Shown: positions 5,104-20,137 of the stretch, one piece after another | Position numbering within the stretch: the first letter of the stretch is position 1 | Layout of the letters: every line of letters starts with the position of its first letter | Virus record (IMG/VR): IMGVR_UViG_3300030331_000665 | Location: 1 to 23,182 of that record | From: a virus | DNA length: 23,182 bases | Reading direction: 5' to 3' (one strand) | Position numbers and translations under genes: made by a program | The notes under the pieces: model-generated | What the model was told of the DNA's origin: nothing | Database searches by the model: none | Seen by the model: the letters and a program-made list of their open reading frames with translations, nothing else

Positions 5104-7117
5104 CGTAGAAAATACAGTAACCAAAAGAGATGATAAAATGCACCTTGATCCTTTTGAACCTACTAATAAGTTAGTCATGGTAGGTTGTCTAGAAGACAAT
5201 GGCAAAGAACATCTAATGAATATAGACGGACCTATTGTTAATTGGACTAATATCATTCAAGATTTACTAGATAGGGCAACAATACTGATTGGACACAATG
5301 TTGTCTATGATTTGATGTGGCTTTGGGAGTCTGGCTTCAAGTATGAAGGACCTATATTTGACACTATGTTAGCAGAGTATGTGTTACAGAGAGGTCTCAA
5401 AGAGCCACTATCATTAGAAGCTTGTGCAGAAAGATATGCGTTAGCTACACAGAAGCAAGATACTTTGAAGGAATACTTCGCAAAAGGTTATGGGGTAGAC
5501 GAGATACCAAGAGAGGAACTATCACAGTATCTCTCTGCAGACCTTAAAGCTACACAAGAACTATCAGATAGGCAGTACAAAAGGCTAAATAGCCAAGAGG
5601 ATGGTGGTCTTTTAGATGTAGTGATATTCACTAATCGTGTAGCATTCTGTCTTGCCAAGATATACAAAAGAGGATTCCAAGTAGACCAAGAAGCACTTAA
5701 TAAGGTACGAGAAGAGTTTAACAAAGAGAAGTCTGATATAGAAGCAAGACTACAAGAACAAGTGAGAGAGTTGATGGGAGATACACCAATCAATCTTAAT
5801 AGTCCAGAGCAAATGTCTTGGATAATCTATAGCAGAAAACCCAAAGATAAAGCTATGTGGACAAATCACTTTACAAGACACATGAAAGATCACGAGTACA
5901 GACAGACTGTAAAGAACAATACAGAGGTTCTCTATAGGACAAGAGCAGAACAATGTCATGTCTGTAAGGGTGTTGGTACTATTAGAAAGATAAAGAAGGA
6001 TGGTAAACCTTATGCTAACCCAAGTAGATGTGTTAACTGTGATGGACATGGATATCTATTCATACCAACTGAAAGAATAGCTGGACTCAAGTTTACTGCA
6101 CCTACATCTAAATGGGTGAGTGCAAATGGATTTACTGTCAACAAAGGCAATCTGTCTATACTGCAGAATACTGCGAAGTCCAAAGGTATGGATAGTGCTT
6201 ACAAGTTTCTTGCAGATATACAGAGACTATCTGCGTTAGATACCTACTTGTCTTCCTTCGTAGAGGGCATACAGACATATACAAAGCCTGATGGTAAGCT
6301 TCATGTTAGATTACTACAACATAGAACTGCGACAGGAAGATTTAGTGGAGCAGACCCTAATATGCAGAATATGCCTAGAGGGGGAACTTTCCCTGTAAAG
6401 AAAGTATTTGTATCAAGGTGGGAAGGTGGCAAGATATTAGAAGCAGATTTTGCTCAGTTAGAATTTAGAACTGCAGCTTTTCTGTCACAAGATAAAACAG
6501 CAATGAAGGAGATAGAAGATGGATTTGATGTGCATAGTTATACTGCTAGTGTTATTAGTGATGCTGGTGAGCCTACTACTCGCCAAGAAGCTAAAGCTCA
6601 TACGTTTGCACCGTTATATGGAGCAACAGGCTTTGGAAGATCGGCTGCTCAAGCTACATATTATAAACACTTCACGGAAAAGTACAAAGAGGTTGGGGTA
6701 TGGCACTCCAGATTGGCTAAAGAAGTTTTAAATACAAATAAACTACGCATACCAACGGGTAGAGAGTTTGCTTTTCCTGACGTTGAAAGGTATGGTAGTG
6801 GCAAGATTTCACACTTTACACAAGTTAAAAACTATCCTGTACAATCACTAGCTACAGCAGACATTGTGCCTTGTGTATTACTTGAGATTGAGAATAAACT
6901 AGAACAACTTAAATCTTGTATAGTAAATAGTGTACACGATAGTATTGTTATTGACGTGCACCCATTAGAGGAGCAAAGAGTATTAACTTTAATAAAAAGT
7001 ATTGACAACAACTTGAAAGATTTGATTCAATCACAATTTAATATAGAGTTTAATGTTCCATTAAAATTAGATGTTAAGTTAGGCGATAATTGGCTTGACA
7101 CAAAAGACGTAGTATGA
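5087..7117 (+). CDS. Family A DNA polymerase with DnaJ-like zinc insertion
   Basis: A 676-residue replicative polymerase. The proofreading exonuclease is at the N-terminus: Asp6 and Glu8 in IDVEN, Asn71 and Asp75 in GHNVVYD, and Tyr148/Asp152 in YLSAD. In the middle, Cys290/Cys293 (CHVCKGVG) and Cys315/Cys318 (CVNCDGHG) form a zinc module like half of the DnaJ cysteine-rich domain. The polymerase domain has motif A with Asp454 (EADFAQLEFR), motif B with Lys503 and Tyr511 (RQEAKAHTFAPLYGATGFG), and motif C with His617-Asp618 (VHDS). All catalytic residues look intact. This polymerase type was noted in marine phage HMO-2011. A strong GGAGA site precedes the ATG. The first 17 bases overlap the endonuclease VII gene. 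Confidence 0.93.
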   Translation: MKLTIDVENTVTKRDDKMHLDPFEPTNKLVMVGCLEDNGKEHLMNIDGPIVNWTNIIQDLLDRATILIGHNVVYDLMWLWESGFKYEGPIFDTMLAEYVLQRGLKEPLSLEACAERYALATQKQDTLKEYFAKGYGVDEIPREELSQYLSADLKATQELSDRQYKRLNSQEDGGLLDVVIFTNRVAFCLAKIYKRGFQVDQEALNKVREEFNKEKSDIEARLQEQVRELMGDTPINLNSPEQMSWIIYSRKPKDKAMWTNHFTRHMKDHEYRQTVKNNTEVLYRTRAEQCHVCKGVGTIRKIKKDGKPYANPSRCVNCDGHGYLFIPTERIAGLKFTAPTSKWVSANGFTVNKGNLSILQNTAKSKGMDSAYKFLADIQRLSALDTYLSSFVEGIQTYTKPDGKLHVRLLQHRTATGRFSGADPNMQNMPRGGTFPVKKVFVSRWEGGKILEADFAQLEFRTAAFLSQDKTAMKEIEDGFDVHSYTASVISDAGEPTTRQEAKAHTFAPLYGATGFGRSAAQATYYKHFTEKYKEVGVWHSRLAKEVLNTNKLRIPTGREFAFPDVERYGSGKISHFTQVKNYPVQSLATADIVPCVLLEIENKLEQLKSCIVNSVHDSIVIDVHPLEEQRVLTLIKSIDNNLKDLIQSQFNIEFNVPLKLDVKLGDNWLDTKDVV

Positions 7118-7153: not shown

Positions 7154-8053
7154 ATGAATAATATTGTAAGTATAAATACAGATAACTATTCTGCTATGGC
7201 TAAAGCTATGGGTTTAGAGCAAGAGAGTTCCAAATCATCTAGCACTTTAGCTAGACTAAAAGTTAGCACTCAAGCAATTATGGGTGAAAAGGAAGTAGGT
7301 GGAACTATGGAGACTGTTCAAAAAGTTGCTCCAGGATCATTTTATCTTGAGCTTCCCGAAGAAAATGACGCTATGTACTACGGAAAGAATGTGGTCATGA
7401 GACCTTTTATGCAAAGATTTTTTCTAAGAAAGTGGGTTAATCCGTCTGAAGGCAAGAAAGGATACTATGTCAAGACGCTGATGGCAGACAATCTAAACAT
7501 TGATCTGAAAGATAATGGTGGAAGTTTTAATTGTGGTAGACCTACAGGGTATATTAAAGACTTTAAAAGCTTAGATAAGAGTATGCAAGAGTCTATCAAA
7601 GCTGTAAGTAGAATAAGAAGTGTTTTTGGTACTGTAAGTTTTAATACAGTAATAAATGCAGATGGTTCTGATTCAGACAAGGTTATCAAAGATGTCCCTT
7701 TTATATGGGAGATAAGTGGTTCAACTGCTTTTAAAGAAGTAGGAGAAGTTTTTAAATCACTATCAAGCATGAAAAGATTGCCTGTTCAGCATGATGCTAA
7801 AATAAGCTTAGACAAAAGAGCAACAGCAGCAGGTGGATCATTTTTCGTACCTAAAATTGACATTAACTTTAAGAACGTACTGAAGGTAGAAGAAAAAGAC
7901 CAAGAAACATTTGGTAACTTTATAGCTTGGATTGAAAATTTTAATGGGTATATATCATCAGCTTGGGATGAAAAGAATCGTAACAAAGTATCAGAAGAAG
8001 ATATGAAAGTTGTTGACGAGTTCATTGAAGTTGATGACGATGCCGAGAAGTAA
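7154..8053 (+). CDS. Probable single-stranded DNA-binding protein with acidic tail
   Basis: A 299-residue protein of a family I recognise from cyanophages and other marine podoviruses, where it sits directly after the polymerase. Landmarks are INTDNYSAMAKAMG near the N-terminus, RPFMQRFFLRKW at about 83-94, TLMADNLNIDLKDN and FIAWIENFNGYI near residue 270. The C-terminus ends in an acidic tail (EFIEVDDDAEK), as in T7 gp2.5 and bacterial SSB, where such tails contact the polymerase and other partners. The function is inferred from position and tail, not from a recognised OB-fold motif. A clean AGGAG site precedes the ATG and the gene has a 36-base leader gap, the largest in the plus block. Confidence 0.7.
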   Translation: MNNIVSINTDNYSAMAKAMGLEQESSKSSSTLARLKVSTQAIMGEKEVGGTMETVQKVAPGSFYLELPEENDAMYYGKNVVMRPFMQRFFLRKWVNPSEGKKGYYVKTLMADNLNIDLKDNGGSFNCGRPTGYIKDFKSLDKSMQESIKAVSRIRSVFGTVSFNTVINADGSDSDKVIKDVPFIWEISGSTAFKEVGEVFKSLSSMKRLPVQHDAKISLDKRATAAGGSFFVPKIDINFKNVLKVEEKDQETFGNFIAWIENFNGYISSAWDEKNRNKVSEEDMKVVDEFIEVDDDAEK

Positions 8054-18175: not shown

Positions 18176-20137
18176 TTAAGCTCCACCAAATGCCGCTGAG
18201 ATTGCCGCAGCTCCAAGTTTACCGACTAGACTTCCTACAGCGGCACCCCTTTGTCCCGATGCAGCTCTTTCAGCGGCTTCTTTCTGAGCATCTGCACTAA
18301 TATTTGCAACAGTCATATCTCTTATTCTATCAAACTCACTTTCAGAACTCTTCCATGCCCACTCCATAGTGTCTGCATAGAACTGCCATAAGTTATTGTA
18401 TTGTTCGTTAGATACATCTAGTACAGCTTTTGCATTAAGTTCATTAGCACGATTGACTATTGCAGTATCTGCTGTAGCTAGTTCTCTTCGCCATACTGCG
18501 TTGTTTTGTGCTATAGCTAATTGATTAGTAGCATTGAATTGGTCACGCTGATTAGCAATCTCACTGTTGAATCTTTGTAATGTGTTAAGCTCTCCTGCGT
18601 TAAACTGTGCTTGTGCATTTGCTTGAGAAGCATTAGCTTGTCCTACAGTTGCAGCAAGATTAGCAAAGAACTGCTCTACTTGATTCTGTGATGTAGCATT
18701 AAACTGTCTAGCAGCATTCTCGGCAGCTTGATCTGTAAAGAGTGATTGTATTCTTTGCTGTGCATTGAACACATCCATCTGCTGTCTGTTTGTTAGATTA
18801 GTCATGTCCATCTGTAAGAAAGACTGTGCATTTTGAACTGCGGCTTGTTGTCTGTTTGTTAGATTAGCTGTGTCTAGATTAGCTAAAGCAGAAGCTTGAG
18901 CAACAACTAATGCTTGTCTATTAGATAGGTTGTTTAGATTTACAGTATTACTTAATCTGCTGTTCTCTAATAAGACTTGCTGTTCAGATGTAAAGTTCTG
19001 ATTAGCTATATCACTTATCTTTGCAGCATTCTGAACCCTAGCTTGAAACGCTTGGTCAAACTCTATGCCTATAAACTGTGCTCTCTGTTGAGCCGCTAAC
19101 ATAGCTCTTTGTTGTCTGTTAGATAAGTTTTGTGTTTCAAACTGTGCTTGTACACTTGCGTCTGCTTGTGCTATCGGTAGTGCAGACTCCATAGCAGCTT
19201 GAACTAAAGCTTGTCCTGCTATACTTGATGCACCCAAGCCTCTTTGTTGCATAACTGCTTGAACACCTCTGATAGCTCCTGCCGCCCAAGACGGTGGGTT
19301 AGTGGCATCAAAGTTAGCAGTTAAACTAGCAAGTTGTCCTGCTACGGTTGCTTTGTCACTAGGTGTTGCTGTTGCAGCTTGAACTTGCTCAGTAAACTTT
19401 TTAGCTGTTTCTGCATTAGCTACCTCATTTATAAGCTCTCCTTCACGGACTTGTCTTTGTATAGGATTCTCTATGAGTATGGCATTGCCTTGAGCCGCTG
19501 ATAGGTTACCTACACTTGTAGCAGTTTCTTGAGCAGCAACAACTTGAGCTTTATTGCTTATGTCACCTTGAGCAGCTTGATTAGCAGATATTGCAGTGTT
19601 TACTGCTGGTGAAACTTTTTCTACTTGTAGTGCATCTGCTTGTGCTTTCTCAGGTGTGAGTGTCTGAGTTGTAGTGGCTTGAAAAGTTTGAGCTTGAGTA
19701 GGTTGTCCTAACTGTCCCTCTCTTGGGTCTATAAACTGTTGAGGTTGCTGTAAAGTCAACTGTGGTTGTGTAACAGCACCTACAGGTATAGCTCCTGTCT
19801 GAGCTAATGTTGAAGATACTTGTCCTATACCTTGAGGTTCACCACCAGTTTGACCATAGGCAGGTATTTGACCAGGTGCTTCTCCTAGTGTAGGAACATA
19901 GGATTGTGTTAGTGGATTAAATTGATTGGGTATGTTAGGTACGTTACCACCCTCTTGCATCTTAACAACACCACCACGAGCCATTCTTTTTGCAGCCTCT
20001 TCAAATACAACCATCTGTCTTTTTTTCTCAGGATTCTGTTCTAAGAAGTTATCAAACTCTTCCATAGAACCTTTGTATCCAAGTCTACCTGCAATCTTTT
20101 GCATTGCCTGTGGTTTAAAACCTGTAAATATTGCCAC
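18176..20137 (-). CDS. Repeat-rich Gln/Ala/Asn structural protein
   Basis: A 653-residue protein starting at GTG in a TAGTG junction with GGAG upstream. The N-terminus (FKPQAMQKIAGRLGYKG and MARGGVVKMQEGG) is a conserved marker of marine podovirus virion proteins. Residues about 60-250 are low complexity and rich in Gln, Pro and Thr. From about 337 to 556 the chain is built on a 22-residue repeat, clearest as NLSNRQQ or NLTNRQQ at 337, 403, 425 and 447. The C-terminus (GAAVGSLVGKLGAAAISAAF) is Gly/Ala-rich and may insert in membranes. Cysteine is absent. An internal or tail-tube-associated fibrous role is likely; which one cannot be told from sequence. Confidence 0.75.
   Translation of the reverse strand: MAIFTGFKPQAMQKIAGRLGYKGSMEEFDNFLEQNPEKKRQMVVFEEAAKRMARGGVVKMQEGGNVPNIPNQFNPLTQSYVPTLGEAPGQIPAYGQTGGEPQGIGQVSSTLAQTGAIPVGAVTQPQLTLQQPQQFIDPREGQLGQPTQAQTFQATTTQTLTPEKAQADALQVEKVSPAVNTAISANQAAQGDISNKAQVVAAQETATSVGNLSAAQGNAILIENPIQRQVREGELINEVANAETAKKFTEQVQAATATPSDKATVAGQLASLTANFDATNPPSWAAGAIRGVQAVMQQRGLGASSIAGQALVQAAMESALPIAQADASVQAQFETQNLSNRQQRAMLAAQQRAQFIGIEFDQAFQARVQNAAKISDIANQNFTSEQQVLLENSRLSNTVNLNNLSNRQALVVAQASALANLDTANLTNRQQAAVQNAQSFLQMDMTNLTNRQQMDVFNAQQRIQSLFTDQAAENAARQFNATSQNQVEQFFANLAATVGQANASQANAQAQFNAGELNTLQRFNSEIANQRDQFNATNQLAIAQNNAVWRRELATADTAIVNRANELNAKAVLDVSNEQYNNLWQFYADTMEWAWKSSESEFDRIRDMTVANISADAQKEAAERAASGQRGAAVGSLVGKLGAAAISAAFGGA
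18734..19129 (-). repeat. 22-residue (66-base) coding repeats
   Basis: Within the 653-residue gene, residues 337-468 fall into six units of exactly 22 residues (starts 337, 359, 381, 403, 425, 447). Units at 337, 403, 425 and 447 begin N-L-(S/T)-N-R-Q; units at 359 and 381 are degenerate. At DNA level the copies share a TGTCTGTTTGTTAGATTA-like stretch. More degenerate units may go on to residue 556. Twenty-two is twice eleven, compatible with a hendecad coiled coil. Confidence 0.75.

Follow-up and report, generated by a model that had tools for sequence, protein, structure and literature searches.

The family A DNA polymerase encoded by the marine phage record IMGVR_UViG_3300030331_000665, whose 23,182 nucleotides form the window analysed here, has in its thumb tip a small, predicted zinc-finger hairpin that probably helps the enzyme to hold DNA or replication partners. 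The DnaJ-like module is already known as a trait and is ordinary for its group. Indeed, a partial DnaJ domain in the polymerase is a published diagnostic trait of HMO-2011-type phages (PMC9038755), the same trait was stated for the phages treated in two other papers (PMC6918029; PMC8528129), and PF00684 is listed on the polymerase gene in the HMO-2011 GenBank entry. These three papers place the partial domain between two enzyme domains and show no role for it. What is added here is the exact location in the thumb, the reading of the module as a single zinc site, the contrast with T7 polymerase and testable predictions. The trait has been used to recognise a phage group that abounds in the ocean. 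The defined thumb point, the single zinc hairpin, the conserved basic loop and the cysteine-poor sister inserts lead to a specific, testable model of how such a polymerase would stay on DNA.

The polymerase gene and its relatives

The 676-residue polymerase is encoded by codons 5087-7114 on the plus strand (Table 1). The Pfam scan identified a polymerase domain with its catalytic motifs (PF00476, E=1.3e-50) and a 3'-5' exonuclease domain (PF01612, E=2.9e-8), which together define the product as a family A polymerase. In tblastn searches of phage records, it was 62.9% identical to the DNAP of HMO-2011 over 100% of its length. The top 12 records, all full length, were of HMO-2011 type (HMO-2011, CRP-345, CRP-1 and nine others), and the next phage records dropped to about 27% identity. 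Polymerases are assigned to the HMO-2011 type when they show at least 25% identity to HMO-2011-type isolates across 80% or more of their length (PMC9038755). The window's polymerase lies within these limits, with its full-length match to HMO-2011 and an identity of 34-63% to 11 isolates.

A maximum-likelihood tree of 39 polymerases was inferred after removal of the insert columns, so that the zinc-module trait could not place itself. All 25 zinc-module polymerases were found on one side of a single branch (support 92/93, recovered in 94% of bootstrap trees), and the window's polymerase stood beside IMG/VR relatives, nested in the part of the tree formed by HMO-2011, CRP-1 and CRP-345. Some outgroup branches are long and no order is claimed among the outgroups. 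The initial annotation had matched the polymerase to the unusual enzyme of HMO-2011, had assigned the window to that group and had proposed a polymerase phylogeny as a check; identity, tree and published limits all agree with this assignment, the phylogeny placing the window within the HMO-2011 relatives and not away from them.

HMO-2011, the roseophages CRP-1/2/3 and the pelagiphage HTVC033P share with the window the polymerase, the two CxxCxGxG motifs, their position and the order of replication genes, and polymerases of this type differ from the window's only by sequence divergence (63% identity to HMO-2011). Both in the window and in HMO-2011, the genes succeed each other as primase, helicase, polymerase, a protein of about 300 residues and endonuclease I. 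In the window, an endonuclease VII-like ORF (PF02945; 4606-5103, plus strand) is present between helicase and polymerase and overlaps both, whereas HMO-2011 has no such ORF at this place. Elsewhere in the window, a cell wall hydrolase gene (PF07486; 208-642, plus strand) precedes the genes for integrase and replication, and a long ORF rich in Ala, Gln and Asn (18176-20137, minus strand), with internal repeats such as NLTNRQQ, has no Pfam match. A tblastn search of 50,697 phage records with the module alone returned no sequences other than one DnaJ and the 12 records of HMO-2011 type. A scan of genome contigs gave matches only in marine MAG contigs, which are probably of phage origin.

Table 1. 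Coordinates in the window of the polymerase gene, the elements of its thumb insert and the downstream gene
Feature	Position	Strand	Basis or conservation
Family A DNA polymerase with 3'-5' exonuclease, HMO-2011 type, 676 aa	5087..7117	+	Translation, Pfam, tblastn
Thumb insert, residues 250-347 (98 residues; 12 in T7, 13 in E. coli Pol I)	5834..6127	+	Alignment, residue counts
Zinc module (query of the profile and fold searches), residues 279-338	5921..6100	+	Alignment, fragment model, HMM, Foldseek
First knuckle CHVCKGVG, residues 290-297	5954..5977	+	Sequence; C290, C293, G295, G297 in 240/240
Basic loop between knuckles, residues 298-314 (TIRKIKKDGKPYANPSR), net +5	5978..6028	+	Sequence
Second knuckle CVNCDGHG, residues 315-322	6029..6052	+	C318, G322 in 240/240; C315 in 238/240; G320 in 168/240
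299-aa protein, acidic at its C terminus; candidate ssDNA binder that might contact the basic loop	7154..8053	+	Directly after polymerase

A predicted zinc hairpin of DnaJ type with a basic loop

The four cysteines of the module are encoded at 5954-5956 (Cys290), 5963-5965 (Cys293), 6029-6031 (Cys315) and 6038-6040 (Cys318). Both motifs fit in full the CxxCxGxG spacing claimed by the initial annotation, whose coordinates 5954-6040 begin exactly with the codon of Cys290 and end exactly with that of Cys318. A chance origin of the two motifs is excluded because none of 50,000 composition-preserving shuffles of the polymerase reproduced the pair, a single motif being obtained in 18 of 50,000.

The peptide patterns used to retrieve relatives all lie outside the zinc module, so that its conservation was not produced by the search itself. 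Cys290, Cys293, Gly295, Gly297, Cys318 and Gly322 are invariant among the 240 relatives retrieved. These columns are also invariant, alongside the catalytic residues D6, E8, D454, H617 and D618, in an alignment of 52 polymerases whose identity is as low as 34%. The polymerase's five other cysteines vary freely among the 240 relatives. The sole break of the four-cysteine pattern among these is an aspartate at position 315, found in two IMG/VR contigs (L064 and L070). Aspartate is also able to bind zinc. CxxC-type cysteine pairs can be redox active, and the four residues might form a redox switch or disulfides with no zinc at all; this we judge very improbable, since the conservation of the knuckle glycines equals that of the cysteines and two phages have Asp at position 315, so that metal binding fits better than disulfide chemistry.

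Basic residues are conserved as well. Lys or Arg occupies position 301 in 97% of relatives, 303 and 284 in 100%, and 335 in 98%, and the loop between the knuckles has a net charge of +4 to +11 in all 240 sequences. In 66 of the 240, the loop contains 12-13 extra residues and is more basic (median +9). A CRP-738-like subgroup (L182-L261, e.g. L218:2395-2610) shows an extension of 12-13 mostly basic residues.

When a profile of residues 279-338 was searched, the first match was the cysteine-rich domain of E. coli DnaJ (1exk, E=0.0013), aligned on motifs 2 and 3. PF00684 was detected at E<=0.01 in 50 of 51 module members. The window's polymerase does not reach the curated cut-off of 32.7 bits, scoring 19.3 bits over its full length and 23.8-25.6 bits when the fragment is taken by itself. 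The fragment was also modelled on its own (pLDDT 89.2) and compared with the PDB by Foldseek: DnaJA2 came first (rmsd 2.2-2.3 Å over 40 columns, probability 0.97-0.98), followed by anti-TRAP and BSD2, and further down by UvrA (rmsd 1.5-2.0 Å over 35-36 columns, probability 0.69-0.82). All these Foldseek E-values exceed 0.1 and none is significant, as expected for a fragment of only 60 residues, and the structural support comes from the probabilities and rmsd only. Together, the Pfam, profile and fold matches bear out the DnaJ-like nature initially proposed for the module.

The resemblance to the DnaJ central domain (PF00684) extends to the CxxCxGxG pairs, the spacing of motifs 2 and 3 and the predicted fold, the motif-to-motif distance between cysteines being 25 in the module against 22 in E. 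coli DnaJ. However, the DnaJ domain has four motifs and two zinc sites, whereas the module has only two motifs, equivalent to motifs 2 and 3, and one predicted site. It also differs from DnaJ by the basic loop between its knuckles, by its score below the Pfam cut-off and by the missing J domain; none was detected by Pfam in the polymerase or in the other window proteins scanned. From sequence and model, we infer that the module amounts to half a DnaJ-type domain, with one zinc site instead of two. The same features bear on a DnaJ-like action, by which the module would recruit the host DnaK or bind unfolded peptides, for instance in replisome loading or remodelling as in phage lambda. The sequence match to the DnaJ central domain and the lambda link noted in the literature (PMC9038755) speak for such an action, which is nonetheless hardly credible for a module with two of four motifs and a PF00684 score under the curated cut-off, in a window where the scanned proteins contain no J domain.

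The C-terminal zinc finger of E. coli UvrA (Zn3) has the same layout as the module: a CxxCxGxG first knuckle followed by IK, then a second knuckle with CxxCxG and a following aromatic residue. Like the polymerase, UvrA is a DNA-handling enzyme, and a hairpin joined to its Zn3 module was reported to contact DNA (PMC7835731). However, the UvrA module sits in an ABC-type repair ATPase, and the Foldseek E-value of about 2-3 is not significant alone; a common origin is not claimed.

Location in the thumb and sister inserts

The AlphaFold2 model of the polymerase, built with 52 relatives, has a mean pLDDT of 90.1, with values of about 85-93 in the module, and its best PDB matches as a whole are Pol I enzymes. 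In this model, thumb helix H (201-230) is followed by nine residues and then by helix H1 (240-248), which corresponds to the NxxSxxQ segment of Pol I enzymes. After H1 come two short helices, a strand (283-289), the two knuckles and a second strand (323-331), and the polymerase fold resumes at a helix formed by residues 353-365. The initial annotation named a predicted fold with separated cysteines as a refuting outcome; the model confidence, the arrangement of strands and the fold matches all agree with cysteines that would come together. The module thus makes up most of an insert of about 85 residues at the thumb tip, after H1. The initial annotation had located it between the exonuclease and polymerase domains; the module is indeed present, but this wording is loose, as it interrupts the thumb of the polymerase domain itself.

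It had also been proposed that the module could replace the thioredoxin-binding loop of T7 polymerase. In a multiple alignment, on which the placement of T7 rests since a profile alignment with T7 covered the palm and fingers only, the numbers of residues between H and H1 and after H1 are 73 and 12 in T7, 4 and 13 in E. coli Pol I, and 9 and 98 in the window. The T7 loop lies before H1 and the module after it, so they are not the same insertion. A T7-type thioredoxin-binding domain, which would be inserted between H and H1, is absent from the window's polymerase, and the equivalence was rejected on the residue counts either side of H1. The two elements have in common that they are thumb-tip inserts with basic residues in family A phage polymerases. 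The T7 domain differs from the module in that it precedes H1, has no zinc knuckles and needs the host thioredoxin. As both lie in the region of the thumb tip, it is possible that they do a similar job.

Polymerases of Zobellviridae, of an Alcaligenes phage, of Friunavirus and of KBC54-like phages harbour inserts at this same place behind H1, with lengths of 50-124 residues. These sister inserts contain zero to two cysteines and no CxxCxGxG motif. A basic G-x-P-K stretch is common to several of them, and is paired by hhalign with KKDGKP of the module. The Zobellviridae, Friunavirus and KBC54-like inserts thus resemble the module by their position and often by a basic G-x-P-K loop, but are devoid of the four-cysteine pattern, which suggests, at the level of sequence comparison, that zinc knuckles may have been added to an older thumb insert. 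Since the insert can exist without zinc, as these sister polymerases show, the metal might be structural only, stapling a long thumb insert against unfolding while the insert makes no contact of its own. We consider this unlikely, for it leaves unexplained the near-invariant lysines 301 and 303 and a loop that is positive in 240 of 240 sequences.

In four phages (MEP402, QDWS535, VP41s3 and Saratov-12; L093-L096), the family A polymerase is split into two genes. Their thumb inserts share the location of the zinc module but do not contain it, and in MEP402 and VP41s3 an ORF is found between the two polymerase genes.

Possible contacts with DNA or with replication partners

The module may be pictured as a single zinc hairpin of DnaJ/UvrA type set in the tip of the thumb. 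The four cysteines of the two CxxCxGxG knuckles would bind one zinc, which would hold together, at its base, an element of two predicted strands (283-289 and 323-331), and the basic loop between the knuckles would project from the thumb tip. The zinc-pinned loop would contact the DNA backbone beside the thumb and slow dissociation, and the polymerase would thereby be processive without a clamp of thioredoxin type. The loop's function would parallel that of the basic T7 loop residues, but from a different insertion point and with a rigidity provided by zinc, not by thioredoxin. Simulations of T7 polymerase show its thumb loop touching the DNA backbone through basic residues (PMC5984650). No thioredoxin gene was found in the 23-kb fragment, and a processivity factor could be supplied by the host or by the rest of the genome. 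By analogy with the hairpin of the UvrA Zn3 module and with the T7 thumb loop, we tentatively regard contact of the zinc-pinned basic hairpin with DNA near the thumb as its likeliest role, with a chance close to even.

The basic residues of the loop would suit the docking of an acidic protein tail equally well. DnaJ-type zinc hairpins, such as those of DnaJ, BSD2 and anti-TRAP, mostly serve protein-protein contacts. The module may then be a protein dock that anchors the polymerase in the replisome, its basic loop binding either the DnaB-like helicase or the acidic C terminus of the protein encoded at 7154-8053, a reading that we hold to be possible at clearly less than even chances. A precedent exists in T7, where the single-stranded binding protein contacts its polymerase via its C-terminal tail and the thioredoxin-binding domain of the thumb (PMC7699545). 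In 169 loci, the polymerase gene is followed, at a distance of no more than about 700 nt, by the start of an ORF of at least 150 codons, and the last 15 residues of its product have a net charge of -2 or lower in 167 of them. Fifteen of these acidic-tailed proteins, one of them from HMO-2011, aligned as one family, and homology covers these 15.

Several observations weigh against such docking. The DNA-binding identity of the downstream protein has no informative database match to lean on: Pfam, NCBIfam and the PDB gave no match for the 7154-8053 product, and PHROGs matches were weak and carried no annotated function. Moreover, loops of 29-30 residues have a charge of +9 versus +5, but the medians of the last 20 tail residues stay at -5 to -7, and those of the last 15 are, if anything, less acidic with more basic loops. 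Loop charge and downstream tail charge show a weak positive correlation, opposite to simple charge matching and confounded by descent. Finally, the window's helicase has no acidic tail. The grip on DNA that we favour and the docking of proteins may also both hold together.

More broadly, a built-in, zinc-pinned basic hairpin could constitute the processivity device of this abundant ocean phage group, its knuckles having been added to the thumb insert of an ancestor shared with the Zobellviridae and Friunavirus polymerases, and would do with zinc, at another insertion point, what the thioredoxin clamp does in T7. Taken as a whole, this scenario is speculative and rather doubtful.

The BFVD contains many small free-standing phage proteins (46-80 aa) with a similar predicted fold of DnaJ-type zinc hairpin. 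Judging from these predicted structures, it is possible that such proteins formed the donor pool of the inserted module.
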